Source of the DNA: a virus
Direction: 5' to 3' (one strand)
IMG/VR virus record: IMGVR_UViG_3300006735_000351
Span: 1-20,081 of that record
Length of the DNA: 20,081 nt
A program made the translations under genes and the position numbers. The notes under the pieces were generated by a model. The model was not told where the DNA came from. It worked only from the letters and a program-made list of their open reading frames with translations, and did not search any database. Shown here piece after piece: positions 2 through 19,845 of this stretch. Each line of letters opens with the position of its first letter. Position 1 is the first letter of the stretch.

Positions 2-805
2 GCTGTTGAGGCCGGCACACGCCGCCTTGGCGCACGTTGGTCCGTCGAGCTTGAGCAAGACCTTAAGAACATGAACGGTATCGATATTGATGCTGAGATC
101 ACGAATGCTATGTCATACGAGATTCAAGCTGAGATCGACCGTGAAATGCTCATGAGAATGATTCAGGCTGCTCTTACAGCCGGATCTGGAGCTGGATTCT
201 CTATCTGGTCACCTGCTTCTGCAGATGGTCGTTGGATGGTCGAGCGTAACAGGGACTTCTATCAGCGTCTTATCATTGAAGCCAATCGTATTGCTGTCCG
301 TAACAGACGTGGAGCTGCTAACTTTATTGTTGCTACTCCTCGTGTTTGCGCCATCCTTGAGATGCTCCCTGAATTCCAGTGGGTACCTGTACAAGGTGAT
401 GTAAACACACAGCCTGTTGGAATTGCAAAGGTTGGTTCAGTCGGTGGAAGATTCAACGTTTACCGTGATACTCGTACTGAGCTTCAGAATAGCCCTAACT
501 ACACTTCTAATAGTGCTGGTTCATATTCAAATGGATCTGGAGGAGCCCTCCAGTCATCTATCGAATATGCACTTCTTGGTTACAAGGGTCCTGAATTCTA
601 CGATACTGGTATCATTTATTGTCCTTACATTCCTGTCATGGTTCAGAGAACTATCGGTCCTAACGATTTCGCGCCACGTGTTGGCTTGCTTACTCGTTAT
701 GGTGTTGTTGACAACATCTTCGGAGCGGATCTCTACTACCATGTCGTTATTGTTCAGGGACTTGGTACTGCGTTCACGCCAGCTTCTCAGACGGTGTACT
801 TCTAA
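2..805 (+). CDS. Major capsid protein, T4 gp23 family (5'-truncated by window edge)
   Basis: This is the C-terminal part of the T4-like major head protein, which forms the hexamers of the capsid shell. The frame is open from base 2 and encodes 23 residues (AVEAGTRRLGARWSVELEQD...) before the first ATG at 71. Those residues match the gp23 stretch ARYTIELAQDLKAVHG, so the ATG at 71 is internal and the true start lies outside the window. Other gp23 landmarks, in window numbering from the ATG at 71: NFIVATPRV near 84-92, GGRFNVYRD near 125-133, YKGPEFYDTGIIYCPYIP near 170-187, and FAPRVGLLTRYG near 201-212. The 267 residues seen are about half of a normal gp23 (T4: 521 aa). A Ser/Gly/Asn-rich loop (about 137-160) sits where T4 gp23 is shorter. 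Only two cysteines are present. Base composition is more GC-rich than in the fiber genes. An intrinsic terminator follows. Family assignment rests on remembered T4 sequence, not a search. Confidence 0.93.
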   Translation, partial: AVEAGTRRLGARWSVELEQDLKNMNGIDIDAEITNAMSYEIQAEIDREMLMRMIQAALTAGSGAGFSIWSPASADGRWMVERNRDFYQRLIIEANRIAVRNRRGAANFIVATPRVCAILEMLPEFQWVPVQGDVNTQPVGIAKVGSVGGRFNVYRDTRTELQNSPNYTSNSAGSYSNGSGGALQSSIEYALLGYKGPEFYDTGIIYCPYIPVMVQRTIGPNDFAPRVGLLTRYGVVDNIFGADLYYHVVIVQGLGTAFTPASQTVYF

Positions 806-1765: not shown

Positions 1766-4700
1766 TTATTCTTCTGGCTTGTCGTACTCAACACGTACTC
1801 TACCGTCTTCATCTGTAGTAGGGTTGTCATACATGTGAGGATCGTGTCTCTCCCCTAATACCATCCATGATACTGTAGCGGTGGAATCTGCTACACAGCT
1901 CTCAACCGTTAGTAGGTTGCCTGATACTGACCCTCTTACTGGATCCCAGTTAGTTTCATTTGTAGTAAACGTTCTAAAACATCTGTTTAATGCGGTTAAT
2001 GTACCTGAGGTCATACCGTGTTTATTGTCGATATTTACTGTAGCTTTACCAGCAGTTAATTCTACAACCCCGCTATATATATTGTCTGCCTGTGGAGCCT
2101 CAACGAATGAGTGTGATAACCGCTTACTAGCAGACAACTCTGGTAATGGGTGCACAATATCAAAACACCCGGATGATTTACTCAAAGTACCACATATATT
2201 AACACCATAACATGCTATTATAGATGGCGTACCGCAACCGCATCCGCATGCACCTGCCCCACCGATAGTCAAGCAAGCACAGCTACTAGCTGATGTTCCT
2301 ATACCGGCACAAGAAAAACAAGCTGTCCCACCACACACAGATGTAGTACCGCATACTGCAGGGGATCTTAGACATGTTGTCGCGCAATGAGTACCAGTAG
2401 TACATGAACCTCCACTTGTAGTTACAAACTTTTTAGAGTTATTGTGATATAAATCAACACTACCGTTGCCAGTAAATTTAGCAGCCATTTCACCGCCTTG
2501 TACTTTTATATCGACATCATCAGCCCCTTGTACTACAACATCATCACCAGTACTACAAATATATAAATCAGCAGTACCATTAACAATATAACCGTTACTT
2601 CCGTCATGGCATATTTGCAGATCATCATCATCACCAATTCTCAAACAATTACTATCTTTTAAATTTAGATCTCCGTTAATATAAACAACTCCAAGGTTAC
2701 AGTTACCAATAGAAACTGTATTGTTACCGCAACCACAAGCGCAGTAACCTATTACTGTTTCGTTTGTTGCCCCTGTAGCTGCAGATCTTGTACAAGCTCC
2801 TAAATATGTATTACAATCAGGAGAGCATATGCAACTACTTCCATTATTTTCAAATGCTCCGGCAGCTAAACCAATAGCAACGTTACAACCACCGTCTTGA
2901 TTATATCTTAAAGCAACTGATCCAACCGCTGTATTACATGAACCGGTACTAGAGTTTGCTCCAGTGCAGGAACCAATATATACATTACAATTACCTGATA
3001 CATTGCTAGACCCTGCATTGAGGCCAAGACCAACATTACAGCCTCCACATGTGTTGTTAAAGAGTGCCGTTTGGCCAAGACCAACGTTATGTGAACCAGT
3101 TGTATTTTTCTCCAGTGTTTGATAACCTACAGCAGTACCACCGGTTCCTGTTGTGTTATTGCAAAGAGCAGCATAACCTACAGCAACCATATTGCCTCCA
3201 GTCTTACAACCGGATCCCCCTACAGCTTGGTATCCTATTGCAGTTATTCTACAAGCACCACATACAAATCTACCTGTTTCCCAACCAATAAATATATTGC
3301 AATGTCCACTAGTAGTACAACCCGCGCCATAACCTATACCAACGTTTCTAAATCCAGTCTGACGTGACATTGCATATGAACCTACAGCAGTATTTTCATT
3401 AGTTGTGCAATTGCAACATAGAGCTCTATACCCTACAGCTGTATTGCTCTTACCGGTCATATTTTGGTTTAACGCACATGCGCCCACTGCAGTGTTACAT
3501 GGAGCGTTACTCTCATACAAAGCTCTATACCCTAATGCTGTTTGACCATCACCTGTTATATTTGTAAATAAAGATTGTCCACCAACAGCAACGATTTCGT
3601 CAGCTGTGGCTCCACTATAACCTGCAGCATAACCAATACCAACGTTTAGATCACAAGTATTATTTCTTAAAGCTGTACGACCTACCGCAACGTTGTAATC
3701 ACCACCGGTATTACAATATAATGAAAAAGCTCCTACAGCAACATTACACGTACCATCTGTAGTCTGATATGAAGCTGCATAACCAAGAGCGGTATTTTGT
3801 GCACCGGTACTCTGATAAAGAGCATTACTACCTACAGCAACATTATAAGCATTAGTAGTATTACAATATAAAGCTGCATACCCAACAGCAGTATTATTAC
3901 CGTCACCACTTGAAGCAAACTGCAAAGCACGCGAACCAATAGCAGTATTAGAATTAGAAGTACTTGCATTTAACGCGCATATACCGAGAGCTGTATTATC
4001 ATTATTACATACATTGCTTTGCAAAGCCTTATTACCTACTGCAGTATTACGAACACCGGTTGTATTAGCCGTAGCAGCACAAGATCCTACAGCTAGCAGG
4101 TCTCCTACGGTACTACTATACAGTGCTTTTGAACCTATAGCTACGTTAGAGTTACCGGTTTGGTTACTATAACCAGCTTGGCAACCTAAAGCAACGTTAC
4201 AATCACCAGTTGTATTTAAAGTCAAAGCTCCACAACCAACACCTGTATTACGTAAACCTGTTGTATTGCATTGTAAGGCGGCATGACCAATAGCTGTGTT
4301 TTGATAACCAGTACAATTGTTTAGTAAAGCTTGTACACCAACAGCAACATTATTGGTCCCATCAGTATTAGCATACAGCGCTTGCAGGCCGACACCTACA
4401 TTTACACCAGTAGTGTTTGTATATCCAGCCTGGTGTCCAATATGAACACTACCGGTTGCGGTGGTATTATGACCAGCGCAGGTACCTATAGCAACATTAC
4501 AACTACCGGAGGAACTCTCTTGCATTGCTTGTACACCTATAACAACATTATCACTACCGGTAATATCAAGACCTGCATAAAAACCTATACCAATGTTATT
4601 ATTAGTACACTCTACCTCAAATAAAGCTTGATGACCTAACGCGATATTATAACAACCAGTGCAATTATTACACATTGCATAATAACCTTGAGCTATATTA

Positions 4701-7700
4701 GATTTACCGGTTGTATTATCTTTTAGTGAATTTTGACCTATAGCAATATTCCAATCACCACAAGTATTAGCATTCAAAGCACAAAAACCTAATGCTGTAT
4801 TATAGCCACCTCCTGTATTATTACGTAAATTTCTAAAACCTATACCAATATTACTATGACCACCGGTATTACATTTTAAAGCCTCTATACCTATTGCGGT
4901 ATTATAATTTCCTGTAGTATTAGCATTTAAAGCTTGCATGCCTAGCGCAGTGTTATTACAACCACATGTGTGAGACATACCTGCACATATACCTAAACTA
5001 ATATTACAACCGACTGTCTGTACACCGGATCCTGCACAAGATCCTATCGATATACTATAGTTACCGGTAGTAGTTGCACCACCGGCATTATTTCCTATAG
5101 CAATGTTACTAGTCCCGGTAGTTAAACACTGGTTAGCTATACAACCTATACCAATATTATGATTACCACATATACCGTCACAACACCCCATGGTAGCTTT
5201 ATAACCAATACCTATATTATTATTACCGGTAGCTAAATTTTGGGCAGCCATTTCCCCTATACCAATATTATTACATGACCCGGCTATATCTCTTACAACA
5301 CCCGGTGCCATCATTAATGCTCTACAACCTATCGCGACATTATTAGAACCAGATACGTTATAATACATACTTTGATAACCCACAGCAACATTCTTAGCAC
5401 CATCAACATTACATATAAGAGGCTGAGAACCTACGCCCACATTTTTGCTTCCTGTAGTAGTACTACAATTAGCGCGAAAGCCAACAGCAACATTATCACA
5501 ACTGGTTGTATTAGAGCAGAGAGAACATGTACCCACGGCAATATTGCAACTACCAGATGTATTACATAACATAGCAAAAGAACCTAAAGCTGTGTTATGG
5601 GCACCACCGGCATTGTTAATATAAAGAGCTGTATATCCTACAGAAGTATTACCTCCACCGGTGTTACCATAATTCTGAGATGCATAACCAATGGCAGTGT
5701 TATAGACACCTGATGTGTTACACGCTGCAGCATATGCTCCGAAGAATGAATTACTGTTAGCAGTATTTTTTAGTCCTGCTAAATAACCTACAGCTGTGTT
5801 ATTATCACAGGTTGTGTTACACATATGTGCTTGTGAACCTATAACAACATTGTATTCTCCTTCTGTATGTGCTAAAGCTGCGTTATAACCTATGGTAACA
5901 TTCTGTGTACCAATTGTAGCATTCGTTGATGCTTGATAACCTAAAGCTGTATTTTTACTCCCTGAAGTTATATCCAGTAAAGCGTCAGAACCTATTTTTG
6001 TATTAAATGTCTTATTATCACTACAATAACCACCACACTTGCTATGTGAGCTCAAAGAACCACATACAGTAAGTTTTTGATTTGGAACTGCTACACCTAT
6101 ACCAACTTTTCCATCTGCTTGAACATGAATTCTATCAGTACTATTTGTCTTTATTATAACATCACAAGCTGTACCAGTATAATTACCTGCTATAACCATG
6201 TCTTCATCATAAGATTGAACAACACCACCATTAATTACAAGACATTGATTAAAATAATATCGAGCTCTATCGGTAACAAAATGGGCCCAACTTCCGTTCT
6301 GCGGACCTATTTGAAGATACCCATTAGGATTTGTAACTTGAAAAGAAGAACTTGTGCCGTCTTTAAGATATAAACCACACGGGAATCGGAAGCATTGTGT
6401 AGCACTTATATCACCTACTACAGTTAGAGTTTCGTTTGGAATGTTTGTATTAATACCGACACATCCATTATGATCAATAACCATTCTTTGAGAAATATTT
6501 GACTCTGCAATTCCTGCGCCACTATTAGTTCCAAAAGAAAGTTTACCGTTTGCGCTCCCTGTTCTTATTGAACGAATCCACGCCCCATTATTGTCATAAT
6601 TTTGAAATAAAATACCTGCGTTGCTGTTTGTCGTGCTGCTGCAATTAGTAATTTTGACTCCAGTGGTGTCGGATGTTGAATTATCTGAAGCTTCAACATC
6701 AAGTTTATTATCAGGACTCGTAGTTCCTATACCAACATTTGCGGTTCCAGGTAATAAACCAATATCTCTATTGGCTGTGCAAATATCAAAATCAGCATTA
6801 CCTAAATAACCTAAACAAGCATATGAAGTACCTCCGTTATCGAAGGTCATAAACATATCGTCTGTATCTGTTGTATCACATAGCTGAATTTTAGCTTCTG
6901 CGCCGCAAACTGTTATAGAACCACCGCCGCCAGTTCCAACGATTAAATCATCATAAACGCAAATATCATTTTTAATGAGAATATCTGTAGCACTCAAAGT
7001 ACCGCATGCACTTAGGTTACCCTTTACAGTTAGTGCTTCATTTGGTGTTGTTGTATTAATACCAACTCTATTATTTGCTGCATCTGTAGCTAGAATCTCA
7101 TTACCATCATCTGCCATTATATGAACATCGACATCTGCATTGGTATTGTTAAGAACAATCTTACTAGAACTCGCGTCGTATTTTAGCGCAGATTTACCTC
7201 CAGCAACTAAGTTAACGAGATTTGTATCATATCGAAGATATGTATCACCGTCTCCATTATGATACAGGTACTGATTCATACCTATGCTTCCAGCTACATC
7301 TAGTGCATAATCTGGCGCGTTTGTACCTATACCAACTCTATCAGTTGATGCATCAGTGAATAACAGATTTGCCTCAGTATCTCCTTCTACTCTGAAGTCT
7401 ACATTCGCTCCTTCTTCATTAAAAGTTATTTCACTTACAGTATCTTGAGTAAGGTCTATAAAATTAACACCACCGGCTTGGATGTTTATGTCGTCGTCAG
7501 TAAAATTAATGTATGTATTAGCATCTCCGTTGTGGTAGATGTATTGGTCAACACCTATATTACCAGCTACATCTAATGTATAATCTGGTGCATTTGTTCC
7601 TATACCTACATTACCAGCAAAATAGTTTACAGCACCGTAAGAACCAGTAGCACTAAGACCACCAGAACTACTTAATCCATGATTGATTATTCGTACTCTT

Positions 7701-9409
7701 TGCTTACCTCCGGTACAAACCATTAAAGCTCTATTAGTATCATTGGCATTGTAATCCACGTCGATAACTAACTGATCTGCAGAGCATATATATGCTGTAT
7801 ATGAATCATTAGGAAAAATCAAAGCATCCCCGCCAATGCATACATCACTAGAAAATCTTCCACACTGTGCGTAAAGAAAGCCGTCAGTGCAAATACTACC
7901 ACATGCTTCAATTGTACCGCATGCGCTTATGTTACCTTTTACAGTTAGCCTCTCGTTTGGTGTTGTAGTAGCAATACCTAAACAACCACTACTATCTAAC
8001 CTCATTTTTGAAGAGGCATTCTGTGTAAAATCTGTAAATGAACTGCTATTATTAACTCTTAAACCACCGGCAACAGCTGCAATATAATGACCACCAACAC
8101 ATACATAAGCTTCACCCCACCCGGAAGATTGAACTACAGCATCTGCGCCTGGATGCCCAGCTCCATCATCTGCTTGTGATACACATATCTTTGTTACACC
8201 ACCACTGTATCCAGCTCCACTTACATGTAAGGTTGCAGTCGTTGGATCTGTACCAATACCAACCGCAGCAGTGCACCCTCTGGTAGGCGAAGCGGATATT
8301 GCCATACCGAATGCTTTAGATGTACCTATTTGTACACATCCACGACAACCACTAGTAATGCACACTTCTCCAACATTAGAACACCATTGCGCATCTAGTT
8401 TGGTTGCTATTAAACAGCTCTTTGCTCTTACTTGATGACCGTAAACCTGACAACAAGTAGTACAAATATTACCTCTTTCTGTACAAATATGACCAAGAGC
8501 GCTTATCCTGCCTGCAACAGTAAATTTTTCATTAGGTGTTGTTGTACTTACACCAACACTAGCACCTACTAAGCTTAATATATCACTACCACCAGCACGT
8601 AGATCCATTCTATCAGAGTCATGATAATATCTTACGTATCCTTGATTAGCGCTTCCAGTGTCCCCGAAAGCTAAATACTGATAACTGCTTGTGGGTCCAG
8701 AAATTTGAATACCAGCATTGGTATTGTTTTCTATTATTAGATCATCGTGATTACTATTAGTGCATATAGCTGCGCCTGCATCTGCAGTATATATATGCGC
8801 TGTACCTAAGGGTCTATTAGTACCTATACCTACCTTACCGGAAAAATAATTAGCTTTGTTAGTGTGGGAATGAGCACTAAGACCGCCACAAGCGCTTATG
8901 TTACCAGCTACGGTAAGTCTTTGACCAGGAGATGTAGTACTTATACCAACACATCCATTAGCATTAGTAGTTAATCTTTCAGATCCGTCTGTAACTATAC
9001 TTAATCTTGTATTTCCTCCTTGAAACGCTTTATATCCATAATAGTTACCTCCAGCAGTGTATAAATCGTGAAATATAAAACCATCATGATTCCCGTCAGT
9101 ACCAGCAAAAACTCCACAATCTTTAGCTACTATATTACCAGCTACTTCTAATCTTTCTGAAGGATTCGTACATCCTATACCAACATTGCCTCCATTTTCA
9201 ATATAGAAAGCTGATGTACCATCATCTTGAAAGTCTACTACTGGTTGCGCCCCAGTTTGATTTGCGAGAATAGCCGGACCTGTACCTGAATTTCGAACTT
9301 CAATAGCAGATGTTGTACATATTTTTGTATCAATACATGTTACTGTACCACGTACAGATAAATTACCTGTCATGGTAGTATTACCTGTCATAGTTGTATC
9401 GCCTGTCAT
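1766..9409 (-). CDS. Giant modular fiber protein with YadA-head-like repeat shaft
   Basis: This is a 2547-residue fiber-like virion protein, probably a trimeric host-recognition fiber (inference). Order of parts: residues 1-20 are TGDTTM/TGNTTM repeats. Up to about 1138 come paralogous modules of the type NVGIGT-P-E-LTV-GN-SACG-LSA separated by beta-rich inserts. Residues about 1139-2233 are about 64 tandem 17-residue repeats with consensus (V/I/L)G-x-x-A-L-x-x-N-T-T-G-x-x-N-T-A, like the left-handed beta-roll of YadA heads. A DDLQICHDGSNGYI module follows, then an extreme Cys-rich stretch (about 2334-2417). The C-terminal 130 residues form a distinct domain (FDIVHPLPELSASKRLSHSF, NIYSGVVELTAGKATVNI, SWMVLGERHDPHMYD). 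I recall relatives of that domain ending fibers of marine phages and proteins of large DNA viruses. It is probably the tip or a trimerisation domain. The start is an ATG overlapping the stop of the 355-residue frame, with AGGTGA seven bases upstream. That start may be an artefact: the two frames read as one gene broken by a one-base deletion. Confidence 0.85.
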   Translation of the reverse strand: MTGDTTMTGNTTMTGNLSVRGTVTCIDTKICTTSAIEVRNSGTGPAILANQTGAQPVVDFQDDGTSAFYIENGGNVGIGCTNPSERLEVAGNIVAKDCGVFAGTDGNHDGFIFHDLYTAGGNYYGYKAFQGGNTRLSIVTDGSERLTTNANGCVGISTTSPGQRLTVAGNISACGGLSAHSHTNKANYFSGKVGIGTNRPLGTAHIYTADAGAAICTNSNHDDLIIENNTNAGIQISGPTSSYQYLAFGDTGSANQGYVRYYHDSDRMDLRAGGSDILSLVGASVGVSTTTPNEKFTVAGRISALGHICTERGNICTTCCQVYGHQVRAKSCLIATKLDAQWCSNVGEVCITSGCRGCVQIGTSKAFGMAISASPTRGCTAAVGIGTDPTTATLHVSGAGYSGGVTKICVSQADDGAGHPGADAVVQSSGWGEAYVCVGGHYIAAVAGGLRVNNSSSFTDFTQNASSKMRLDSSGCLGIATTTPNERLTVKGNISACGTIEACGSICTDGFLYAQCGRFSSDVCIGGDALIFPNDSYTAYICSADQLVIDVDYNANDTNRALMVCTGGKQRVRIINHGLSSSGGLSATGSYGAVNYFAGNVGIGTNAPDYTLDVAGNIGVDQYIYHNGDANTYINFTDDDINIQAGGVNFIDLTQDTVSEITFNEEGANVDFRVEGDTEANLLFTDASTDRVGIGTNAPDYALDVAGSIGMNQYLYHNGDGDTYLRYDTNLVNLVAGGKSALKYDASSSKIVLNNTNADVDVHIMADDGNEILATDAANNRVGINTTTPNEALTVKGNLSACGTLSATDILIKNDICVYDDLIVGTGGGGSITVCGAEAKIQLCDTTDTDDMFMTFDNGGTSYACLGYLGNADFDICTANRDIGLLPGTANVGIGTTSPDNKLDVEASDNSTSDTTGVKITNCSSTTNSNAGILFQNYDNNGAWIRSIRTGSANGKLSFGTNSGAGIAESNISQRMVIDHNGCVGINTNIPNETLTVVGDISATQCFRFPCGLYLKDGTSSSFQVTNPNGYLQIGPQNGSWAHFVTDRARYYFNQCLVINGGVVQSYDEDMVIAGNYTGTACDVIIKTNSTDRIHVQADGKVGIGVAVPNQKLTVCGSLSSHSKCGGYCSDNKTFNTKIGSDALLDITSGSKNTALGYQASTNATIGTQNVTIGYNAALAHTEGEYNVVIGSQAHMCNTTCDNNTAVGYLAGLKNTANSNSFFGAYAAACNTSGVYNTAIGYASQNYGNTGGGNTSVGYTALYINNAGGAHNTALGSFAMLCNTSGSCNIAVGTCSLCSNTTSCDNVAVGFRANCSTTTGSKNVGVGSQPLICNVDGAKNVAVGYQSMYYNVSGSNNVAIGCRALMMAPGVVRDIAGSCNNIGIGEMAAQNLATGNNNIGIGYKATMGCCDGICGNHNIGIGCIANQCLTTGTSNIAIGNNAGGATTTGNYSISIGSCAGSGVQTVGCNISLGICAGMSHTCGCNNTALGMQALNANTTGNYNTAIGIEALKCNTGGHSNIGIGFRNLRNNTGGGYNTALGFCALNANTCGDWNIAIGQNSLKDNTTGKSNIAQGYYAMCNNCTGCYNIALGHQALFEVECTNNNIGIGFYAGLDITGSDNVVIGVQAMQESSSGSCNVAIGTCAGHNTTATGSVHIGHQAGYTNTTGVNVGVGLQALYANTDGTNNVAVGVQALLNNCTGYQNTAIGHAALQCNTTGLRNTGVGCGALTLNTTGDCNVALGCQAGYSNQTGNSNVAIGSKALYSSTVGDLLAVGSCAATANTTGVRNTAVGNKALQSNVCNNDNTALGICALNASTSNSNTAIGSRALQFASSGDGNNTAVGYAALYCNTTNAYNVAVGSNALYQSTGAQNTALGYAASYQTTDGTCNVAVGAFSLYCNTGGDYNVAVGRTALRNNTCDLNVGIGYAAGYSGATADEIVAVGGQSLFTNITGDGQTALGYRALYESNAPCNTAVGACALNQNMTGKSNTAVGYRALCCNCTTNENTAVGSYAMSRQTGFRNVGIGYGAGCTTSGHCNIFIGWETGRFVCGACRITAIGYQAVGGSGCKTGGNMVAVGYAALCNNTTGTGGTAVGYQTLEKNTTGSHNVGLGQTALFNNTCGGCNVGLGLNAGSSNVSGNCNVYIGSCTGANSSTGSCNTAVGSVALRYNQDGGCNVAIGLAAGAFENNGSSCICSPDCNTYLGACTRSAATGATNETVIGYCACGCGNNTVSIGNCNLGVVYINGDLNLKDSNCLRIGDDDDLQICHDGSNGYIVNGTADLYICSTGDDVVVQGADDVDIKVQGGEMAAKFTGNGSVDLYHNNSKKFVTTSGGSCTTGTHCATTCLRSPAVCGTTSVCGGTACFSCAGIGTSASSCACLTIGGAGACGCGCGTPSIIACYGVNICGTLSKSSGCFDIVHPLPELSASKRLSHSFVEAPQADNIYSGVVELTAGKATVNIDNKHGMTSGTLTALNRCFRTFTTNETNWDPVRGSVSGNLLTVESCVADSTATVSWMVLGERHDPHMYDNPTTDEDGRVRVEYDKPEE
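2160..2410 (-). other. Cysteine-dense segment before the fiber tip domain
   Basis: About 80 residues of the 2547-residue fiber (roughly residues 2334-2417) contain 15 cysteines by hand count, about one in five. Short runs include FSCAGIG, SSCACLTIGG and GACGCGCGTP. It lies between the DLQICHDG module and the C-terminal tip domain. Spacing is irregular, and there is no repeated CxxC pattern of the zinc-ribbon type. A covalently cross-linked collar or a metal-binding neck are possible readings; neither is shown by the sequence. Confidence 0.6.
2711..5995 (-). repeat. About 64 tandem 51-bp (17-residue) coding repeats
   Basis: A continuous in-frame array inside the 2547-residue fiber. Each unit is about 17 residues with consensus (V/I/L)G-x-x-A-L-x-x-N-T-T-G-x-x-N-(T/V/I)-(A/G). 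Examples are VGYRALCCNCTTNENTA and IGIEALKCNTGGHSNIG. A hand parse gives about 64 units, most 16-17 residues, with a few longer (for example those with MMAPGVVRDIAGSCN and ENNGSSCICSPDCN). Units are well diverged at DNA level. The pattern matches the YadA-head / trimeric beta-roll family, in which each unit makes one turn of a left-handed parallel beta-roll with hydrophobic G-(V/I) strands inside. By hand count there are about 65-70 cysteines in the array, at the x positions and the positions flanking N-T-T-G. Confidence 0.9.
7060..7605 (-). repeat. Two tandem LDVAG-YHNGD modules, homologous to modules in the neighbouring fiber
   Basis: Two successive units of about 90 residues begin GTNAPDYTLDVAGNIGV and GTNAPDYALDVAGSIGM and continue with YHNGD, DDINIQAGGVNFIDL and ITFNEEGANVDFRVEG. 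The 2610-residue fiber has closely similar units at about 16370-16640 and 16975-17240. Plus-strand runs near 7459 and 17108 are identical for more than 20 bases. The units therefore arose by duplication and exchange between the two genes. Confidence 0.75.
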
Positions 9410-9430
9410 GGTGGTATCACCTGTAACGTC
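9406..9430 (-). other. ATGA junction / probable one-base deletion splitting a fiber gene
   Basis: The 355-residue frame ends GDKTLQVIPP-stop, and its TGA (9406-9408) overlaps the ATG (9407-9409) of the 2547-residue frame. In the downstream frame the coding sequence continues upstream of the ATG as TGDTTM, in phase with the following TGDTTM and TGNTTM repeats. Adding one T in the TT at about 9425-9426 (minus-strand ACG-TT-ACA) would restore GDKTF-TGDTTM-TGDTTM, a continuous fiber motif. This points to a recent single-base deletion, a sequencing or assembly error, or a -1 frameshift. No classical X-XXY-YYZ slippery heptamer is present. AGGTGA (9417-9422) stands seven bases before the ATG and could allow coupled reinitiation. 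Confidence 0.75.
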
Positions 9431-10473
9431 TTATCACCAGCAATTGATTGTGTACCGGTTGTACGTACAACTGTAGAGTTAACAGCTATGGTACCAGACG
9501 AAGTTATTGTACCTCCATCTAAACCGTCGCCAGCTGTAATGCTTGTTACTGTTCCTTCACAATCGTTACCAACAGTACAAAATATAGTATTTAAATCACG
9601 ACCAGCAGAAACAATACCATTACGGGTATTACAAGCACTTAACCCACCGGTAACACATACGCCTGAATTAGTTGTCTCGAACTTCTTAGCGTCATTAAAT
9701 CTAAGCTCCACCCTCCCATCTGGGACATACATTAATCCCTTATTGGCATTATGCCCTATAACGACTGAATCATTACTGTTATTTCTAATGAATAGATCAC
9801 CAGTAGAATTATCTATATAAGAATTTTCGCCGGAGGAACAGTGGTATATTTGTAAATCGTTACCGGTTCCAAACATTGCTTTAACGTTGTCTGAATGCTT
9901 TACTGCATCTGCAGATTCATCAGCCTGAAAATAACCACCATTATCCATGGATACTAGTAAGTCACCATTGTCAATATGAAGAGCGTATCCAGGTCTGTTT
10001 GTACCAATACCTACGTTACCTGAAAAATAATTAGCTTGGTTAACATGAGAATGAGCGCTAAGACCTCCGCATGCGCTAACATTACCAGATACTGTTAATT
10101 TTTGTGCTGCTTCATCGTTACCGATACCAACTTCTCCAGAACTTCTTATACGTACCTTTTCACCGCCGTTAGTACGAAGCGCCATATAATCATACTGATG
10201 GTTATATATAACAGCTCCGGAAAACAACGAGGAAGCATCAGCAAAATATAATATACTATTATTTGTAGTACTAGAAGATTTTAAATATATGTAAGAACTA
10301 CCGCTAGAAGATTCAAATCTTGGACCATCAGAGCCGGTAAAACAAACATGAAGAGGTGTAACAGGTCTATTTACACCAATACCAACACTACAAGCAAAGT
10401 AATTATTTACTAGCGTTGAGCTGAGGCCACGTTGCGCGCTTATACCTCCTGTTGATGTTATTTTTATTGACAT
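9406..10473 (-). CDS. Fiber protein N-terminal segment (probably 5' part of the giant fiber gene)
   Basis: A 355-residue modular fiber segment beginning MSIKITSTGGISAQRGLSST. Visible parts: YFACSVGIGVNRP (about 25-37), a beta-rich insert, GEVGIGNDEAAQKLTVSGN (about 114-132), SACGGLSAHSHVNQANYFSG followed by VGIGTNRPGYALHIDNGD, a DLQIYHCSSGENSYIDN module (about 211-227), VELRFNDAKKFETTNSGV, and CNTRNGIVSAGRDLNTIF leading to GTVTSITAGDGLDGGTITSS and SIAGDKTL. It lacks any C-terminal tip or chaperone-like domain, which a free-standing fiber would need. Its last residues before the stop (QVIPP) break the expected GDKTF-TGD motif. It is best read as the N-terminal part of one protein of about 2,900 residues with the following frame. 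The alternative is two separate polypeptides made by coupled translation. The ATG lies 17 bases from the stop of the 2610-residue gene, with ATTAAATAT in between and no clear Shine-Dalgarno. Confidence 0.8.
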   Translation of the reverse strand: MSIKITSTGGISAQRGLSSTLVNNYFACSVGIGVNRPVTPLHVCFTGSDGPRFESSSGSSYIYLKSSSTTNNSILYFADASSLFSGAVIYNHQYDYMALRTNGGEKVRIRSSGEVGIGNDEAAQKLTVSGNVSACGGLSAHSHVNQANYFSGNVGIGTNRPGYALHIDNGDLLVSMDNGGYFQADESADAVKHSDNVKAMFGTGNDLQIYHCSSGENSYIDNSTGDLFIRNNSNDSVVIGHNANKGLMYVPDGRVELRFNDAKKFETTNSGVCVTGGLSACNTRNGIVSAGRDLNTIFCTVGNDCEGTVTSITAGDGLDGGTITSSGTIAVNSTVVRTTGTQSIAGDKTLQVIPP

Positions 10474-10483
10474 TTTATATATA

Positions 10484-10491
10484 TATTTAAT
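10484..10491 (-). promoter_or_regulatory. Late-promoter-like motif ATTAAATA before the 355-residue frame
   Basis: ATTAAATAT ends nine bases before the ATG at 10473 and overlaps the TAA stop of the 2610-residue gene. The same nine bases precede the mini-fiber gene at 19070. It resembles the T4 late octamer TATAAATA with two mismatches. It sits in a 17-base run of pure A/T, so chance similarity is possible. Confidence 0.3.
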
Positions 10492-13400
10492 TACATTTTG
10501 CGAATCATCGCCTTAACTAAGTGTGAATTTCCTGCACCAGCTTCCATAGATTGCGCTATAACAGAACCATAAATAGGCTCACACGTTTTTCTACCGTGTC
10601 CGGGTTTATTGGATGTAGTTATATAATCACCAATCTTTATGTCTCCAGTAACTAGAACAGGCTCAGCACCTAGAACTATTGGTTGACACACACCATTTTG
10701 CGTTACTCCAAATACTTTTTTATCATTTTCTTTTGTTGACTGTATTAAGTCACCACATTCACCTATAACAACTAATGTACCAGTTGGGTAGCAAGCTAAT
10801 GTATCATTAGCAGCTTTTTGCTCAAAATAACCACCAGCTATAACACAAGCAAAATAACCATTACCAGAAGCACTTACGCTGCCTCCTACTGTAAGTCTTT
10901 CATTTGGTGTGAGAACACAGCCTGTATTATCGTTGCCTATACCAACAAAACCGCATGCACAACTATCAGTACCTATAGTCATTCTAGGTGTTGTACCAGA
11001 TACATCTATCTTGATATTACAATCACCTATAACTAGATTGTCAGAACTATCCATCTTAACCGCATCAATTACACCGCCACCGGCAGTTTCTGTTTGATAT
11101 CTTCGGTTATTATCAATTCTTATATCTCCTCCGGCTACATGTAGTAGTGACTGTGGAGCGCATGTACCAATACCAACACATCCAGTTGCGTCGATACGCA
11201 TTTTTTCATTAGAATCACCGACATTAGGTGTTTGAAATCTTATTGTAGTAGCACCTACTGCAAAATTTGTAGAGCCAGCATTAATCTCCATTCGAGATGT
11301 CCGGCCTGCAGAAGCACCTGACCCCCAAGCATTTATCCAAGCACTATATTCTGAATTTTGTAGTTCAATAGTTGGACCCGTGGTATCATATTTTTGAATA
11401 TGTAAATTATAGGCTGGTCTATTTGTACCAATACCAACTTTACAAGCAAAGTAATTATTCATTTGCGTAGCACTAAGACCACCGCAAGCGCTTAAGTTAC
11501 CTTTAACTGTTAACTGCGTACAGCTTTGACAAGCTATACTGTTACCAATTGTATCTGTATCAGACCAAACTGGTAAGAAGTTAGCTGTACCAGAACCATC
11601 AACATTACCGGATGATGTTGCGAAGATGTCTGCTAGATCACGACCAGCTGAAACAAAACCATTATGTGTAGAACTTGCAGAAACACCACGAGTTACAGAT
11701 GCACCTCGTGTAACTGTAAGCTTACGTACGCTAGCATCACCATCAACATTTAAATCATTTGTAACACATTGACTACCGCATGTTGTTGTTCCTGTACTTG
11801 TTGTCTCAAGTCTTATAGTACCGCCCTGCGATAGTTCTACTTTCTCTCCGCTGCCTCCTTTAGCAGCTATCATAGTACGAGCACTGTTAGAGTCCTGTAT
11901 AAAGACACTAGCATTGTTTGTTGTTACATACAAATCACCTGTACCATTTTCAGAAATATAAGAGTTAGCTCCGTCGTGTTGTAGTTGTAAATCATTACCG
12001 TTACCTAGCTTAATTATACCGGCATCCGGTAAAAGGAGGCAGCCAGTAGCGCTTATGTTACCCGATACTGTAAGTTTCTGGTTTGGTGCTGTATTACCGA
12101 TACCAACACAACCTCCACCATCGATGGTCATTTTTCTACCGGCTGATACACCGAACGCCATCTTGTTCTCGGAATGCCTATATTGTACATAACCGACATA
12201 TGAACCGGTCCCCGACGTTGCATCAGCAAAATATAAATTAGCATTGTTATTATCTTCAGCAAAGATTGTTATACCTTGTCCTCCTGACCCACTACCAACA
12301 ACTAGTGAGTTACCATCGCTACCAAAAGTGCCCGGTCTATTATTACCAATACCTACACTACAAGCAAAATAACTCGGCATTTGTGTAGCACTAAGACCAC
12401 CACAAGCGCTTATGTTACCAGCTACAGTAAGTTTTTCTCCTGGTGCGGTTGTACCTATACCAACATTACCATCATTACTTCCTGTACCACCACGGATTGT
12501 CATCGCAACATTATCCGCTGGCGCAAATTGAATTAAGTTTAAGTCAGTTGAACTTTGATATTGCGTAGATAAAACAAGGGAGTTTTGAGCAGTTTGGTCG
12601 AATACAATTTTAGCTGTTTGTGTACCACCATCAGCATCTTCAAGAAGTATCTGTGTTGGATCCCCGGAAGCATCTTTAATGTGTAAATCAGCAGCGGGTC
12701 TATTAGTACCAATACCAACCTTACAAGCGAAGTAACCAACACCTTTAGTAGCGCTAAGACCACCACAAGCACTTATGTTACCTCCAACAGTTAATCTCTG
12801 TCCTGGATTCCCTCCTTTAATACCAACATTACCATCGCTATTAATCCGCATCCTCTCAGAACCACATGTATAAAATCTATGTAATGTTCTATCTATTTTA
12901 TATGCATCTAACGTATCAACTACAAATTTAAAATCACCACCCCATGAACTGTTTCTACCAACATTAAATTCGAATTCACCAGAAGATGGAGTTTGTTTTA
13001 TACAAGCATCAAATGTTGACCCGGAGTTAGCTTTCCACTCTATACCATAAGCAGTGTTACAGTTGTTTGCTAGTGTTATAACTGGATCATCGTCTAAAAT
13101 AAATAATTTACTAGTAGGTCTACATGTACCAATACCAACATTGCAAGCAAAGTAACTATTCATTTGGGTAGCGCTAAGACCACCACAAGCACTTAAGTTA
13201 CCTTTAACTGTTAATAAGCAAGCATTAGGTTGACAAACTATACTGTTACCAATTGTATCTGTATCAGACCAAACTGGTAAGAAACAAGCTGTACCAGAGC
13301 CATCAACGTTACCTGAGCTTGTTGCAAATATATCTGCTAAGTCTCTACCAGCTGAAACAAAACCATTGCGTGTGTTACAGGCGCTTAAACCTCCTACAAT

Positions 13401-16400
13401 GTCTACACCCGATGCATCTGTACGAAAACGCGTTATGTTATTGTGATACAAATTAACAGCCCCGTCCTCAAAGGCAGTCATCATTGTCTCGCCATTGTTT
13501 GCTGATTTTAATCTATACGCATTTGTACTAACTATTAAATCACCTGTCCCGCTTTCGTCTCGAATGTAAGAATTAGAACCATCATGATATAATTTTAAAT
13601 CTTGTGAATTACCTAATGTTATACAAGTACTATCAGGTACACGTATTGCATCTGATGCACTAAGAACCCCGCAAGCGCTTATGTTACCAACAACAGTAAG
13701 CTTTTCATTGGGGACCTCAGTGCCGATGCCGAGTTTGCCATCAGCTTGAAGGTTTAAAACTGTGCCTGCTGAATTCTTAGCTTTTAAAATGTCTCGACTA
13801 TCTGAAGCTGTGGCAGTTTCCAAAAGCAAAACACTTCCAGTAGATACCGTTCTTATTCTAGCGGTTGGGGTAACACTGCTGTTAGAACCTTCAATACAAA
13901 AAGTCTGTTGATCTACGCTAGAGTAAATATCGAGACTGGTCTCTGGTTTATTTGTCCCTATACCAACCTTACAAGCAAAATAACCAACACCTTTGGTAGC
14001 ACTAAGACCACCGCAAGCGCTTATGTTACCGGTAACAGTAACCCCGGTATTAGTTGTCTCTAATTTTTTATTACCACCGTTATAATAAAGTTCTACCGCT
14101 CCACCACCTTTAGCTGTAATACCAGATGCACCATTTCCTGGTTGGATATATACATCATCTATTGCCCTAACAAATATATCGTCACCAGTATTAACTGTGC
14201 GTAAGATTAAATCACCAGCTCTATTATCAATATAAGAATCAGTACCATTATGATATAATTGTAAATCTTGAATATTACCTAGTGTTATTTTACTATCATC
14301 GGGTACTCGAATCGCATCTGCTGCACTAAGAACCCCACAAGCACTTATGTTACCTGCTACAGTAAGTTTTTCATTAGGTGTTATATTGCCAATACCAACA
14401 CATCCAGTTGCGTCAAAAACAATCTTATTTGCAGCTGTAGACGTTGCATTAGGTCTAAACTCCAAAGTATCATCAGACTTACTTTCTAACCAATATCTAT
14501 TAGACCCATCTCTAAATTGAATATAAGCTGAATAGCTGTCATTCGCCATGATTTGAGTAAACGCATGATTATCTGTAGATTGAATTCGTAGACCATCATT
14601 GCCGGCAAAACACATATGCGCTTTCTTTTGAGGTCTATTTGTACCAATACCTACACTACAAGCAAGGTAACTATTCATCTGTGTAGCGCTAAGACCACCG
14701 CACGCGCTTAAGTTACCTGCTACATCTAACTGCGTACTACTCTGACAAGCTATACTGTTGCAAATTGTATCTGTATCAGACCAAACTGGTAAGAAGTTAG
14801 CGGTTCCAGATCCATCAACGTTACCTGAACTTGTTGCAAATATATCTGCTAAGTCGCGACCGCCTGATATAAATCCTCCATAAGAACTATTACAAACAGC
14901 AACATGCTCTCCAAGACCAGCGCTAAGACTACCAAGAGCGCTTATGTTACCAGCAACAGTTAGTTTTTGATTTGGTGTAGTTGTACCTATACCAACGTTA
15001 CCGTCTTTGTCTATACGAACAGCTCCTGATGTTGTCCCACCAGATTTTACATTAAATGATAATGCGTTGTTGTTGTTATCAATGAATTGAGAGCTTATCG
15101 CATCATATTGATTAGTAGCTCCGTAAGTTCTAAAACCAAAACTTCCATCTTTTGGTGCTAGAATATCTTTGTTCGCTATAATTGAATTATCTATTCCTTT
15201 GATAGTGTGTCCAACACCTAAATCTAGTAGACCTAGTAGATTTATCTTATCAACATGATAACTACCCGCGCCGTCAGCTACTTTGAAAGTAGTGCCATCA
15301 TTATAAATAACACTATCATATGTACCAGCACTATCTTTTAAGCCTATCTTTCCTCCATTACCCAACTCTAATTTTTCAGAAGGTCTATTTGTACCAATAC
15401 CGACTTTACAAGCAAAATAACCAACACCTTTAGTAGCGCTAAGACCACCGCATGCACTAACATTACCAGCAACAGTAAGCTTTTCATTTGGCGTTGTTGT
15501 ACCGATTCCAACTTTACCAGATGAAGGCATTAACACATCATATGTTAACTGATTAACTCTGAATAGATCAGTACCGTTTCCAGCCTCTACTCTCAATCCA
15601 TCGTAGTTACCACTAGCACCACCGCCACAAATTACAAGTAGATCTCTATCAATTGTCTTAAGAGCTGATACTTGCAAGTATGATGTAGGCCAGTTTGTAT
15701 TAATTCCGACATTACAAGCAAAATAACTCGGCATTTGTGTAGCGCTAAGACCACCACAAGCACTTATGTTACCAGCTACAGTAAGTTTTTCACCAGGAAC
15801 CTCAGTACCGATGCCGACGTCGCCGTCTTTTACTACAAGCGATCCAACGGTATCACTTCCACCTCCTTGTAGATGGAGTGCTCCGCTTTTACTACCAATC
15901 CAAGCTGTGCCCCCGTTGTCTTTTAGTTCAATTTTTGCCAATTCGTCTGAACTCTCCAGACGAATACCAACATCAAAAATCCCTGAGTTGACATGAAATT
16001 TCCTTTCAGGTCTATTTGTACCTATACCTACATTACAAGCAAAATAACCAACACCTTTAGTAGCGCTAAGACCACCGCAAGCGCTTAAGTTACCTGCTAC
16101 ATCTAACTGTGTACTACTTTGACAAGCTATACTATTTTCAATAGTATTAGAATCAGAAAAAACAGGTAAATAATTAGCAGTACCAGAGCCGTCAATATTT
16201 CCGGATGATGTAGCAAATATATCTGCTAAGTCTCTACCGCCTGATATAAATCCACCGTAAGAACTATTACAAACAGCAACACGTTCTGCACTAAGAGTGC
16301 CTGTTGCGCTTATATTACCTGATACAGTTAGCTCTTCATTTGGTACTGATATACCGTTGATTCCCACTTTATTTGTATTTGCATCAGTCTTGAATAGCGG

Positions 16401-18323
16401 GTTACCTTCATTAGCACCGGTACCCTTAATAATAACATCTACATTATTACCACCATCATTGAATGTAATATCGTGTGGCTGAGCACCAGCATCGTTTAAA
16501 TCTATATATGATATACCACCAATATTAAATCTAAGTCTATCATTTGTAAGATTAATATATGTGTTAGGATCACCATTATGATAAATGTATTGGTCAACAC
16601 CTATATCTCCCGCAACATCCAGTGTATAATCTGGCGTGTTTGTACCAATGCCAACCTTACAACCAAAGTAACTATTCATTTCAGTAGCACTAAGACCACC
16701 GCAAGCGCTTAAGTTACCTTTAACTGTTAACTGTGTACTAGTTTGACAAGCTATACTATTAGTAAGTGTATTACTGTCAGACCATGAGGGTAAGAAGTTA
16801 GCAGTTCCGGAACCATCAACGTTACCAGAAGCCGTTACAAAGATGTCTGCTAGGTCTCTCCCACCAGATATAAACCCTCCATAAGAACTATTGCAAGCAG
16901 CAACACGTTCTGCACTAAGAGTGCCTGTTGCACTTAGGTTACCTTTTATAGTTAGTTTTTCGTTTGGTGTCCTGGTACCTATACCAACTTTATCAGTTCC
17001 AGCATCTGTGTATAACAAGCCATTATCTGTGGTTCCTTCTACTCTAAAGTCTACATTCGCTCCAGCTTCATTAAAAGTAATTTCACTTGCAGTATCCTGT
17101 GTAATGTCTATAAAATTAACACCACCGGCTTGAATATTAATATCGTCTTCAGTAAAATAAATGAAAGTATCATCATCACCGTTATGAATAAGGCATGCCC
17201 CAACACCAATACTACCAGCTACATCAAGCATATGATCCGGTTTATGTGTATTAATACCAAGCCTTGCCTCCAAATAATTATAACCTTCACCAGAAGCACT
17301 AAGACTACCGCATGAACTTATGTTACCAGATACAGTAAGTTTTTCACCTGGATTTGAGTTAGCAGCAGCAGTAATTTCACCGGTACCGATACCGACGTTA
17401 CCGGATCCATTTATGGTCATCCTGGTATTGTCACCATTAGTCTTTAAGTAAATATTTTCAAACCTACAAGAACTACCACCATCATGATCAGCCCACAGTT
17501 CTAAGTTGTAATCTGATTTAATGAAACCATCTGACCCATCAGTATCCAAGAGTAATTGTCCATCACTAGAACCTCTAATATCCAATTTGGCTGCCGGTGG
17601 TGTAGTTACTGGGTGATTAGAGTTTGCTCCTATACCAACGTTACAACCAAAGTAACTATTCATTTGGGTAGCGCTAAGACCACCACAAGCGCTTATATTA
17701 CCAGCTATAGTTACATTACCTGTTGCGCTTAAGTTACCGTCTATAGTAAATTGCGAGCCAGACTCCCGTGCTATACTATCAGTTAACGTTGTTGAACCGG
17801 ACCATTTTGTTATTCGGCCTGTTGTTCCAGATCCACAGACACTACCAGAACAAGCTGAGGTTGCAAATATATCAGCTAGATCACGACCACCAGATATAAA
17901 ACCACCGTATGATGTATTACAGACAGCAACACGTAATGCGCTAAGATTATTTGTTGCGCTTACATTACCTGATACAGTAAGCTTTTCATTAGGATCTTTA
18001 GTGTTAATTCCTAAGTTTCCAGTATCAGCAAAGTATATTACACCACCCTCTTGATCAACAAACTCTGCAATTGGTTGACTAGCACCCTTTTGTCTTACAT
18101 ATAATGCTGGACCTGTACCATTATTAATAACAGATAAAGCAGAGGTTGACGTTACAATGGTTCTCGTAAATATAGCAGATGCCGCTTCGAACTCTGTTGC
18201 AGTTAATTTAGTGAACGTCGCATTAGTCCCGGTAAGTGCGTTCAAGTAAGCATTACCACCCACAGACAAATCCTGCGTGATAGTTGCACCATTCTTTACC
18301 TTAAAATCTTTATTTAGCGCCAT
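10491..18323 (-). CDS. Giant modular tail/virion fiber protein
   Basis: A 2610-residue fiber protein, probably a homotrimer at the phage surface (inference). The N-terminus MALNKDFKVKNGATITQDLS is a start typical of cyanophage-like structural fibers and is presumably the attachment end. Residues about 50-120 form an NNGTGPALYV...NEKLTVSGN module also found at the start of the 2547-residue protein. The shaft then holds about 20 LTV-GN-SACGGLSA units, six GGRDLADIF...VDGSGTAN-LP-WSD modules, three DLQLYHNG-type modules, and inserts with EKMRI / RMTI strands. The C-terminal 130 residues differ: YFEQKAANDTLACYPTGTLVVIG, then KVFGVTQNG, GDIKIGDYITTSNKPGHGRKT and GSVIAQSMEAGAGNSHLVKA. They resemble C-terminal domains of other T4-like marine phage fibers, in which a GTLVV-GEDGE-type strand and a GD-L-TS--PG turn recur. 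No S74 peptidase motif is seen. Cysteines number on the order of a hundred, many at fixed module positions (ISACGG, YFACKVG). ATG 18323 is supported by an upstream CATAAATA and a GGGGGAAAG leader. Confidence 0.9.
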   Translation of the reverse strand: MALNKDFKVKNGATITQDLSVGGNAYLNALTGTNATFTKLTATEFEAASAIFTRTIVTSTSALSVINNGTGPALYVRQKGASQPIAEFVDQEGGVIYFADTGNLGINTKDPNEKLTVSGNVSATNNLSALRVAVCNTSYGGFISGGRDLADIFATSACSGSVCGSGTTGRITKWSGSTTLTDSIARESGSQFTIDGNLSATGNVTIAGNISACGGLSATQMNSYFGCNVGIGANSNHPVTTPPAAKLDIRGSSDGQLLLDTDGSDGFIKSDYNLELWADHDGGSSCRFENIYLKTNGDNTRMTINGSGNVGIGTGEITAAANSNPGEKLTVSGNISSCGSLSASGEGYNYLEARLGINTHKPDHMLDVAGSIGVGACLIHNGDDDTFIYFTEDDINIQAGGVNFIDITQDTASEITFNEAGANVDFRVEGTTDNGLLYTDAGTDKVGIGTRTPNEKLTIKGNLSATGTLSAERVAACNSSYGGFISGGRDLADIFVTASGNVDGSGTANFLPSWSDSNTLTNSIACQTSTQLTVKGNLSACGGLSATEMNSYFGCKVGIGTNTPDYTLDVAGDIGVDQYIYHNGDPNTYINLTNDRLRFNIGGISYIDLNDAGAQPHDITFNDGGNNVDVIIKGTGANEGNPLFKTDANTNKVGINGISVPNEELTVSGNISATGTLSAERVAVCNSSYGGFISGGRDLADIFATSSGNIDGSGTANYLPVFSDSNTIENSIACQSSTQLDVAGNLSACGGLSATKGVGYFACNVGIGTNRPERKFHVNSGIFDVGIRLESSDELAKIELKDNGGTAWIGSKSGALHLQGGGSDTVGSLVVKDGDVGIGTEVPGEKLTVAGNISACGGLSATQMPSYFACNVGINTNWPTSYLQVSALKTIDRDLLVICGGGASGNYDGLRVEAGNGTDLFRVNQLTYDVLMPSSGKVGIGTTTPNEKLTVAGNVSACGGLSATKGVGYFACKVGIGTNRPSEKLELGNGGKIGLKDSAGTYDSVIYNDGTTFKVADGAGSYHVDKINLLGLLDLGVGHTIKGIDNSIIANKDILAPKDGSFGFRTYGATNQYDAISSQFIDNNNNALSFNVKSGGTTSGAVRIDKDGNVGIGTTTPNQKLTVAGNISALGSLSAGLGEHVAVCNSSYGGFISGGRDLADIFATSSGNVDGSGTANFLPVWSDTDTICNSIACQSSTQLDVAGNLSACGGLSATQMNSYLACSVGIGTNRPQKKAHMCFAGNDGLRIQSTDNHAFTQIMANDSYSAYIQFRDGSNRYWLESKSDDTLEFRPNATSTAANKIVFDATGCVGIGNITPNEKLTVAGNISACGVLSAADAIRVPDDSKITLGNIQDLQLYHNGTDSYIDNRAGDLILRTVNTGDDIFVRAIDDVYIQPGNGASGITAKGGGAVELYYNGGNKKLETTNTGVTVTGNISACGGLSATKGVGYFACKVGIGTNKPETSLDIYSSVDQQTFCIEGSNSSVTPTARIRTVSTGSVLLLETATASDSRDILKAKNSAGTVLNLQADGKLGIGTEVPNEKLTVVGNISACGVLSASDAIRVPDSTCITLGNSQDLKLYHDGSNSYIRDESGTGDLIVSTNAYRLKSANNGETMMTAFEDGAVNLYHNNITRFRTDASGVDIVGGLSACNTRNGFVSAGRDLADIFATSSGNVDGSGTACFLPVWSDTDTIGNSIVCQPNACLLTVKGNLSACGGLSATQMNSYFACNVGIGTCRPTSKLFILDDDPVITLANNCNTAYGIEWKANSGSTFDACIKQTPSSGEFEFNVGRNSSWGGDFKFVVDTLDAYKIDRTLHRFYTCGSERMRINSDGNVGIKGGNPGQRLTVGGNISACGGLSATKGVGYFACKVGIGTNRPAADLHIKDASGDPTQILLEDADGGTQTAKIVFDQTAQNSLVLSTQYQSSTDLNLIQFAPADNVAMTIRGGTGSNDGNVGIGTTAPGEKLTVAGNISACGGLSATQMPSYFACSVGIGNNRPGTFGSDGNSLVVGSGSGGQGITIFAEDNNNANLYFADATSGTGSYVGYVQYRHSENKMAFGVSAGRKMTIDGGGCVGIGNTAPNQKLTVSGNISATGCLLLPDAGIIKLGNGNDLQLQHDGANSYISENGTGDLYVTTNNASVFIQDSNSARTMIAAKGGSGEKVELSQGGTIRLETTSTGTTTCGSQCVTNDLNVDGDASVRKLTVTRGASVTRGVSASSTHNGFVSAGRDLADIFATSSGNVDGSGTANFLPVWSDTDTIGNSIACQSCTQLTVKGNLSACGGLSATQMNNYFACKVGIGTNRPAYNLHIQKYDTTGPTIELQNSEYSAWINAWGSGASAGRTSRMEINAGSTNFAVGATTIRFQTPNVGDSNEKMRIDATGCVGIGTCAPQSLLHVAGGDIRIDNNRRYQTETAGGGVIDAVKMDSSDNLVIGDCNIKIDVSGTTPRMTIGTDSCACGFVGIGNDNTGCVLTPNERLTVGGSVSASGNGYFACVIAGGYFEQKAANDTLACYPTGTLVVIGECGDLIQSTKENDKKVFGVTQNGVCQPIVLGAEPVLVTGDIKIGDYITTSNKPGHGRKTCEPIYGSVIAQSMEAGAGNSHLVKAMIRKM
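11415..17932 (-). repeat. Six dispersed copies of a ~270-bp GGRDLADIF / YFACKVGIGT coding module
   Basis: Inside the 2610-residue fiber, six copies of a module of about 90 residues lie at roughly 11415-11682, 13117-13388, 14632-14900, 16009-16279, 16636-16903 and 17640-17932. In protein order each reads NSSYGGFISGGRDLADIF or NTRNGFVSAGRDLADIF, then ATSSGNVDGSGTANFLPVWS, TIGNSIACQ, LTVKGNLSACGGLSA and YFACNVGIGTNRP. Three copies (near 11550, 13255 and 14765) share more than 25 identical consecutive bases. A seventh, shortened copy (SAGRDLNTIF) is in the 355-residue frame. The smaller SATKGVGYFACKVGIGT unit recurs at about 12697, 13950, 15380 and 16009 with high DNA similarity. Such repeats favour recombination within and between the fiber genes. 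Confidence 0.85.
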
Positions 18324-18383: not shown

Positions 18384-19070
18384 TTAATAATGCGCAACAC
18401 CATATATTGTTACATTACAATCAGCTGTAGTTGTTATATCTAGATTGATAAATTCCAACCCAACACTAACTGTCACATCTGATAAGAGTGATGTAGCTTG
18501 AGCGTCAACTATACCGTATGTCGTACCATCAGCTGTACTCACACCATCGTGCGTTACTAATATTTCAAAAGCTGTTCTAGATGGTGTATTATTTGAAAGA
18601 GTTACAACATACTTAGCTGTTTTAAAGTCATTTTTATTAAATGTTGCTATTGTATTTGCTCCTGTAGTAAGAGGACCAGCAAATACACTTGTTTTTGTAA
18701 ATACAATGCCATTTGCTGCGTATTCAATAATATCCCCCCTAATAATTAGATCTCCATTAATTTCTTCATTATTAAAAGTAAACTCATCCCCTTCTTCTAT
18801 AGAATCCCACGTTACCTTACCGTCACCTGTTGTTTTTAAAAATAAACCTTTTTCAATTCCTGTTGATTTTATATCAACACCCTCAACATTTACTTGTGAA
18901 CTAGATAATATATCTCCACTCCAAGTACCAAAAAAATTATTTGCAGATACGCTCCCAGATAACACGCCTATATTACCAGCTACTGAAAGCCTCTCGTTAG
19001 GTATTATACCTAAACCAACGTTTCCTTCAAAATAACTTTTACCGTCATATGTTCTTATAGGCTTAGCCAT
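18384..19070 (-). CDS. Short fiber-like virion protein (mini-fiber)
   Basis: A 228-residue protein whose first 50 residues carry one copy of the fiber module found in the giant genes (YFEGNVGLGIIPNERLSVAG, then SGSVSANNFFGTWSGD). The middle has fiber-like strands (DIKSTGIEKGLFLKTTGDGK, INGDLIIRGDIIEY). The C-terminal about 100 residues form a separate beta-rich domain: FAGPLTTGANTIATFNKNDF, TAKYVVTLSN, FEILVTHDG and TYGIVDAQA. I recall similar FRTAKYVV-type domains in cyanophage structural proteins. It is followed by a strand-rich end, NVTIYGVAHY. Unlike the giant fibers it has a single cysteine. Its place upstream of the giant fibers suggests a short fiber, adaptor or tip protein of the same appendage (inference). 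The start follows ATTAAATAT by five bases, with no Shine-Dalgarno. Confidence 0.8.
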   Translation of the reverse strand: MAKPIRTYDGKSYFEGNVGLGIIPNERLSVAGNIGVLSGSVSANNFFGTWSGDILSSSQVNVEGVDIKSTGIEKGLFLKTTGDGKVTWDSIEEGDEFTFNNEEINGDLIIRGDIIEYAANGIVFTKTSVFAGPLTTGANTIATFNKNDFKTAKYVVTLSNNTPSRTAFEILVTHDGVSTADGTTYGIVDAQATSLLSDVTVSVGLEFINLDITTTADCNVTIYGVAHY

Positions 19071-19092: not shown

Positions 19093-19845
19093 CTATTCTT
19101 CAATATATCCCCGCTGCTTAATATATGTGGAACTTGAAACTGCTAAGTTAGCGCGTTGATCAGCAACAGGGCCTACACGAGGCATGTTCGGATTACCGTA
19201 AAAATGGTAAACATATAATATATCCTCGATGTGTTTAACTGCTGAATAATCACCATCTCTTTGTCTTAGTAAATATAACAACGGGAGAATATATGCATGA
19301 TCAGTCCCCATCTGAAACCAGTTATTATTTAAGTCTAAAAAATTACATGTAGGTATAGATAAAAGCGCTTTTACTTTAAAAGTTGATATATGACTAGTAA
19401 TCCAATCATCTTTATACGGGTCCCAGTCTTTAGATGGGATAGCTTTTGAAATACCCGGTTCATCATTACTCGATAATCTATAGTTAGAATAAACATATTC
19501 TAGCTTTGGATCATTATCATATGTATTTTTTATTATTGATAAAGCATCTTTTCTAGCTAACCAATCATCACTATCAACTGCACATATAATATCCTCAGGA
19601 TCTTTACTTCGAGCGTGATCGACGATATTTTTTAATCTATAATTACGTGTTTTATTACGGACGATTTCAATATACGAATTACGTCCTTGACATGTATCCA
19701 ATATATCAACAGTCTCTTGATCAGACATATCATCTACAATTATATGACTGTCTGGCTGCAACGTTTGCCTTTCAATGCTATCAATACAATTTAAAAGAAA
19801 CGGACCGGGATTACGCCCAGGTGATATAACATGTATTTTGCTCAT
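19093..19845 (-). CDS. Family 2 (GT-A fold) glycosyltransferase
   Basis: A 250-residue enzyme predicted to transfer a sugar from a nucleotide-sugar donor. The N-terminal HVISPGRNPGPFLLNCIDSI and ERQTLQPDSHIIVDDMSDQE (residues 5-44) form the first beta-alpha-beta of the GT-A nucleotide-binding fold, with the conserved acidic pair at D38-D39. DSDDW at 91-95 is the DxD-type metal/diphosphate motif. GTDHAYILPLL (180-190) is in the place of the catalytic acidic segment of GT2 enzymes. Length is that of a single-domain GT2. There is no membrane helix, so it acts in the cytosol. Its ATG overlaps the upstream QueF stop (TAATG), indicating coupled translation, and the mini-fiber follows 22 bases later. 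Acceptor and sugar cannot be read from sequence; fiber glycosylation, DNA-base glycosylation or host-glycan change are all possible. Confidence 0.88.
   Translation of the reverse strand: MSKIHVISPGRNPGPFLLNCIDSIERQTLQPDSHIIVDDMSDQETVDILDTCQGRNSYIEIVRNKTRNYRLKNIVDHARSKDPEDIICAVDSDDWLARKDALSIIKNTYDNDPKLEYVYSNYRLSSNDEPGISKAIPSKDWDPYKDDWITSHISTFKVKALLSIPTCNFLDLNNNWFQMGTDHAYILPLLYLLRQRDGDYSAVKHIEDILYVYHFYGNPNMPRVGPVADQRANLAVSSSTYIKQRGYIEE

Follow-up and report, generated by a model that had tools for sequence, protein, structure and literature searches.

The two overlapping minus-strand reading frames of 355 and 2547 amino acids (aa) described here very probably represent, in a marine T4-like phage, a single giant tail-fibre gene with a frame broken by an insertion or deletion at the edge of a variable 18-base repeat. 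None of the relatives found has the break, which interrupts a single motif and is, within the aligned gene, the one gap that alters the frame. Because the closest relatives carry the gene whole, the break is most likely an ordinary mutation or an assembly error rather than a new device, and the arrangement is neither a native two-gene layout nor programmed recoding.

The window, i.e., the whole stretch of DNA analysed, is the 20,081-base IMG/VR virus record IMGVR_UViG_3300006735_000351 of a marine, T4-like phage; membership in the T4-like phages is indicated by a gp23-type major capsid gene on the same contig as the fibre genes. The minus strand carries three fibre-type frames, at 18323-10491 (2610 aa), 10473-9406 (355 aa), and 9409-1766 (2547 aa). 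The features referred to below are as follows.

2-805, plus strand: 3' part of a gp23-type major capsid gene (phrog_138, E 3.3e-51; T4-like gp23 records)
1766..9409, minus strand: downstream (3') piece of the broken fibre gene, 2547 aa (matches to PHROG families for tail fibre, tail spike, and virion structural proteins; tip relatives)
1769..2281, minus strand: C-terminal fibre tip region, 171 aa (tip relatives, model)
9365..9424, minus strand: tandem array of an 18-base unit, 3.3 copies, encoding TGDTTM/TGNTTM (the close relatives L006 and L007 have a single unit)
9406..9430, minus strand: 25-base overlap of the open frames, with an ATGA stop/start and without a slip site
9406..10473, minus strand: upstream (5') piece of the broken fibre gene, 355 aa (residues 3-350 share 94% identity with L006 and L007)
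9427..9483, minus strand: BppL_N-like motif (Pfam), cut at model position 19 of 25 (P0001 residues 331-349)
10491..18323, minus strand: neighbouring giant fibre gene, intact, 2610 aa (open frame)
19070-18384, minus strand: 228-residue protein beside the fibre genes
19845-19093, minus strand: GT2 glycosyltransferase (Pfam)

The 355-residue frame ends SIAGDKTLQVIPP-stop, its C-terminal stretch reading ...TGTQSIAGDKTLQVIPP-stop, and the last few of these residues are an out-of-frame reading. The 2547-residue frame starts MTGDTTMTGNTTM and contains long repeat stretches followed by a C-terminal tip domain. This downstream frame extends no more than seven open codons (DVTGDTT) upstream of its own ATG, and the open frames therefore overlap by 25 bases (9430-9406), while the annotated frames share the four bases of an ATGA stop/start at 9409-9406, with a Shine-Dalgarno (SD)-like AGGTGA that ends seven bases before the downstream ATG. 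Everything observed in the initial annotation was confirmed.

Scans of IMG/VR yielded two close relatives of the 355-residue piece (L006 and L007), each 94% identical to it, and in both a single unbroken frame begins in the corresponding start region, crosses the break position, and continues to the end of the fibre (2606 aa in L006 and 3044 aa in L007); L007 also keeps the gene order of the window. A more distant record (L018/L027) has a single frame of 1081 aa that is open at the contig end, with a different linker at the break position, so that L006, L007, and L027 all have an unbroken frame at this place; the exact flanks on both sides of the break are common to only the first two. With residues 1-150 of the 3' piece as the query, six of nine fetched loci matched (no match was found in L008, L009, or L010); the best matches in all six lie in frames that remain open for at least 240 codons upstream, and four of the six begin within the first seven residues of the 3' piece. 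Among 12 further records with a related tip, eight match the junction region, and none of the 15 listed junction-region matches contains a stop. An IAG-KT-type motif with in-frame continuation after it is kept in seven of the nine loci inspected and is lacking in the other two (L110 and L117). No relative examined shows a two-gene layout at the break position, and a natural layout of this kind, for which homologous fibre genes had been proposed as the check, was rejected on these grounds. The proposal that one giant fibre gene has been split by a frame break is thus supported by an unbroken frame in every relative found. A DNA search against named phages gave no match and none of these phages is closer than 60% identity; bacterial and archaeal genomes scanned with the L007 protein gave two pattern matches and no relative.

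Alignment of the broken gene with L007 over 8,535 bases (90.5% identical) contains 12 gaps, 11 of which are multiples of three; the sole frame-changing gap, of 35 bases, is at the break. This, together with the unbroken frames of the relatives, makes the split more than a chance observation. At about 7606, 570 bases (190 codons, in frame) that are present in L007 are absent from the window, and this segment probably consists of fibre repeat modules. Module exchange is strong in the neighbouring fibre gene (10491-18323), whose alignment with L007 is one of shuffled modules only (identity 75.6%, with 51 gaps), and little in the broken gene, which is nearly collinear with L007. In the neighbouring gene 20 of the 51 gaps are not multiples of three with both frames open, a count that is unusable because the alignment crosses shuffled modules; the count for the stretch 19845-18384 (three of five gaps not multiples of three) is likewise unusable.

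The break also cuts through a recognizable element. The Pfam BppL_N model is covered at positions 1-25 of 25 across the corresponding place in L006 and L007 and at positions 1-19 in the window, and in solved TP901-1 baseplate proteins the motif forms one continuous piece (best E 1.1e-4). Since BppL_N is continuous both in the relatives and in TP901-1, the break lies inside an element and not between modules. The likeness to the lower baseplate protein of lactococcal phage TP901-1 is confined to a TG-TIAG-KTFTGN segment, which matches at the break in the relatives; in TP901-1 the motif occupies approximately residues 32-63 of chains 163-173 residues long, whereas here it is internal to a giant fibre. 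With regard to selection, dN and dS values for the 5' piece are alike in all three pairs (0.035 and 0.183 for window-L007, 0.031 and 0.211 for window-L006, and 0.041 and 0.183 for L007-L006) and therefore do not point to prolonged relaxation in the window; this pattern would be compatible with a recent break or an error, and gives no date.

At a score of 40 or more a single tandem array is reported for the window, and the break site coincides with its edge. The array has three units in the window compared with one in the close relatives, and relative to L006 and L007 the net difference of 35 bases corresponds to two extra 18-base units less one base. The initial annotation had proposed the loss of one base; that the frame is broken holds, and as the copy number of the tandem repeat at the break differs from that of the relatives, the event is better described as an indel at the repeat edge than as merely a lost base. 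The array itself had not been remarked upon in that annotation. A search with a pattern specific to this array gave no matches, and no second contig with it was found. Slippage at a homopolymer was rejected, the longest run of equal bases within 30 bases of the overlap being two.

Replication slippage or recombination at the repeat, giving a real mutation in the phage, would account for the break with what we judge to be about an even chance, and a misjoin of variants with different repeat numbers during assembly, such that the phage in the sample has a whole gene, is possible at a somewhat lower probability; both fall within the preferred explanation of a single broken gene. The position of the break at the edge of the window's only array, the variation in copy number between strains, and the restriction of the break to this one contig among the records examined all point towards an assembly or consensus error, while the shortness of equal-base runs around the overlap and the open state of the other long frames of the contig argue against it. 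An array of about 60 bases is, moreover, within the span of ordinary short reads. A real break would be expected to leave the 355-residue piece as a dead-end product. The 2547-residue piece retains the tip and, in that case, could still be produced, at a lower level, through termination-reinitiation at the ATGA; it would lack the N-terminal part that the relatives possess. By analogy with fibre families in general, the fibre is presumably a trimer.

The ATGA overlap and the AGGTGA before it raise the question of whether the two pieces are expressed together, and we consider a functional fission, with coupled translation of both pieces and their assembly into a fibre of two parts, very unlikely. 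The spacing of the SD-like sequence is good, ATGA overlaps commonly couple translation, and in tests elsewhere strict coupling was seen for 13 of 14 overlapping gene pairs (PMC6728339); furthermore, frame arithmetic on the intact genes indicates that a break would meet an ATGA restart with an SD-like core at only 1.2% (L007) and 1.0% (L006) of positions. Such a restart is thus uncommon unless breaks happen at the repeat, which counts to some extent against the preferred explanation; the array may be a hotspot, or else survival may be limited to those breaks that have a restart. However, each of the three array units ends in ATG followed by A, with AGG ten bases before that ATG, and a frame break at the array therefore meets a restart site at once. 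The coincidence of ATGA and AGGTGA to which attention had been drawn is present, and both elements look like by-products of the repeat unit. That the break cuts through a motif instead of falling between modules, and that no relative is split there, also argue against fission. Some expression of the downstream piece by reinitiation is possible, judging from these sequence features, and is more plausible than a -1 shift. A stable fission of a giant fibre at a repeat edge, with the tip part made via termination-reinitiation and assembling with or without the small N-terminal part, appears very unlikely; if true, slippage at the repeat would give phages a way to acquire fibres that are shorter or detachable.

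Programmed -1 frameshifting, which had been raised as another way of joining the two frames, is extremely improbable and was rejected. While its direction would be right, as the downstream frame is the -1 frame, the overlap of only 25 bases holds no zero-frame slippery heptamer (X XXY YYZ), at most one of the three bases of any codon in it is kept on a -1 slip, and the relatives need no shift. RNA from the break onward shows somewhat stronger folding than shuffled sequences (z of -2.1 to -2.3 for the window and -1.2 for the relatives), which favours a shift and stands against the preferred explanation, but taken alone means little. An internal promoter or terminator between the pieces was also rejected, as positions 8900-11000 contain five promoter-like sites against a shuffle mean of 8.0, i.e., no excess, and two terminator-like sites, neither of which is on the minus strand.

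Assignment of the broken gene to the tail fibres of T4-like phages is supported by the PHROG tail-fibre and tail-spike matches and by similarity to giant fibre genes of cyanophages in the T4-like group, such as that of Prochlorococcus phage P-SSM2, whose "phage tail fiber-like protein" is 54% identical to the tip over 84% of the query. The P-SSM2 protein has similar repeat stretches; it differs in that the tip is encoded in a 3513-base gene, far shorter than that of the window. The predicted structure of the tip (pLDDT 76, pTM 0.59) gave only weak matches in the PDB, the best being the tailspike of cyanophage Pam1 (E 3.6e-4, TM 0.33), and P-SSM2 was among its matches in BFVD; the C-terminal 200 residues, compared by sequence with the PDB, gave one match, at E 0.26. 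The 3' piece (1766-9409) is rich in cysteine (130 of 2547 residues, 5.1%), as are the intact relatives (140 of 3044 in L007 and 116 of 2606 in L006); the capsid fragment has two cysteines in 267 residues. Several places in the tip (1769-2281) are occupied by Cys in close relatives (L030-L040) and mostly by Ser or other residues in more distant tips (L043 onward, to L100), and the enrichment therefore seems, from these sequences, to be a trait of the window's phage group.

Other genes near the fibre genes include the GT2 glycosyltransferase gene (19093-19845), which has the same position in L007 and L027 and might modify fibres or capsid. Proteins of 242 aa (935-1663) and 228 aa (18384-19070) adjoin the capsid and fibre genes, and neither matches Pfam or PHROG at E 0.001. 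A PF00124 photosystem gene was found in none of five related records, which therefore gave no basis for assigning a host.

In the literature searched for split or frameshifted fibre genes, the closest known parallel is the stf (side tail fibre) gene of phage lambda PaPa, which is whole in relatives such as Ur-lambda and is divided by a frameshift into ORF401 and ORF314 (PMC9659904); the stf frameshift is likewise mentioned in PMC3945230. The two cases are alike in that a fibre gene that is whole in relatives is read as two frames, and they differ in that the lambda frameshift is a mutation of laboratory origin that is known to have cost the phage its side fibres, whereas the present case concerns one metagenome contig and an unrelated giant marine fibre with the break at a tandem repeat. 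The annotation should be corrected to one fibre gene with a break, and not a small fibre plus a baseless fibre. If the break is real, it would provide, beside lambda stf, a natural example of a fibre gene lost by frameshift, and the repeat may make such fibre losses recur.
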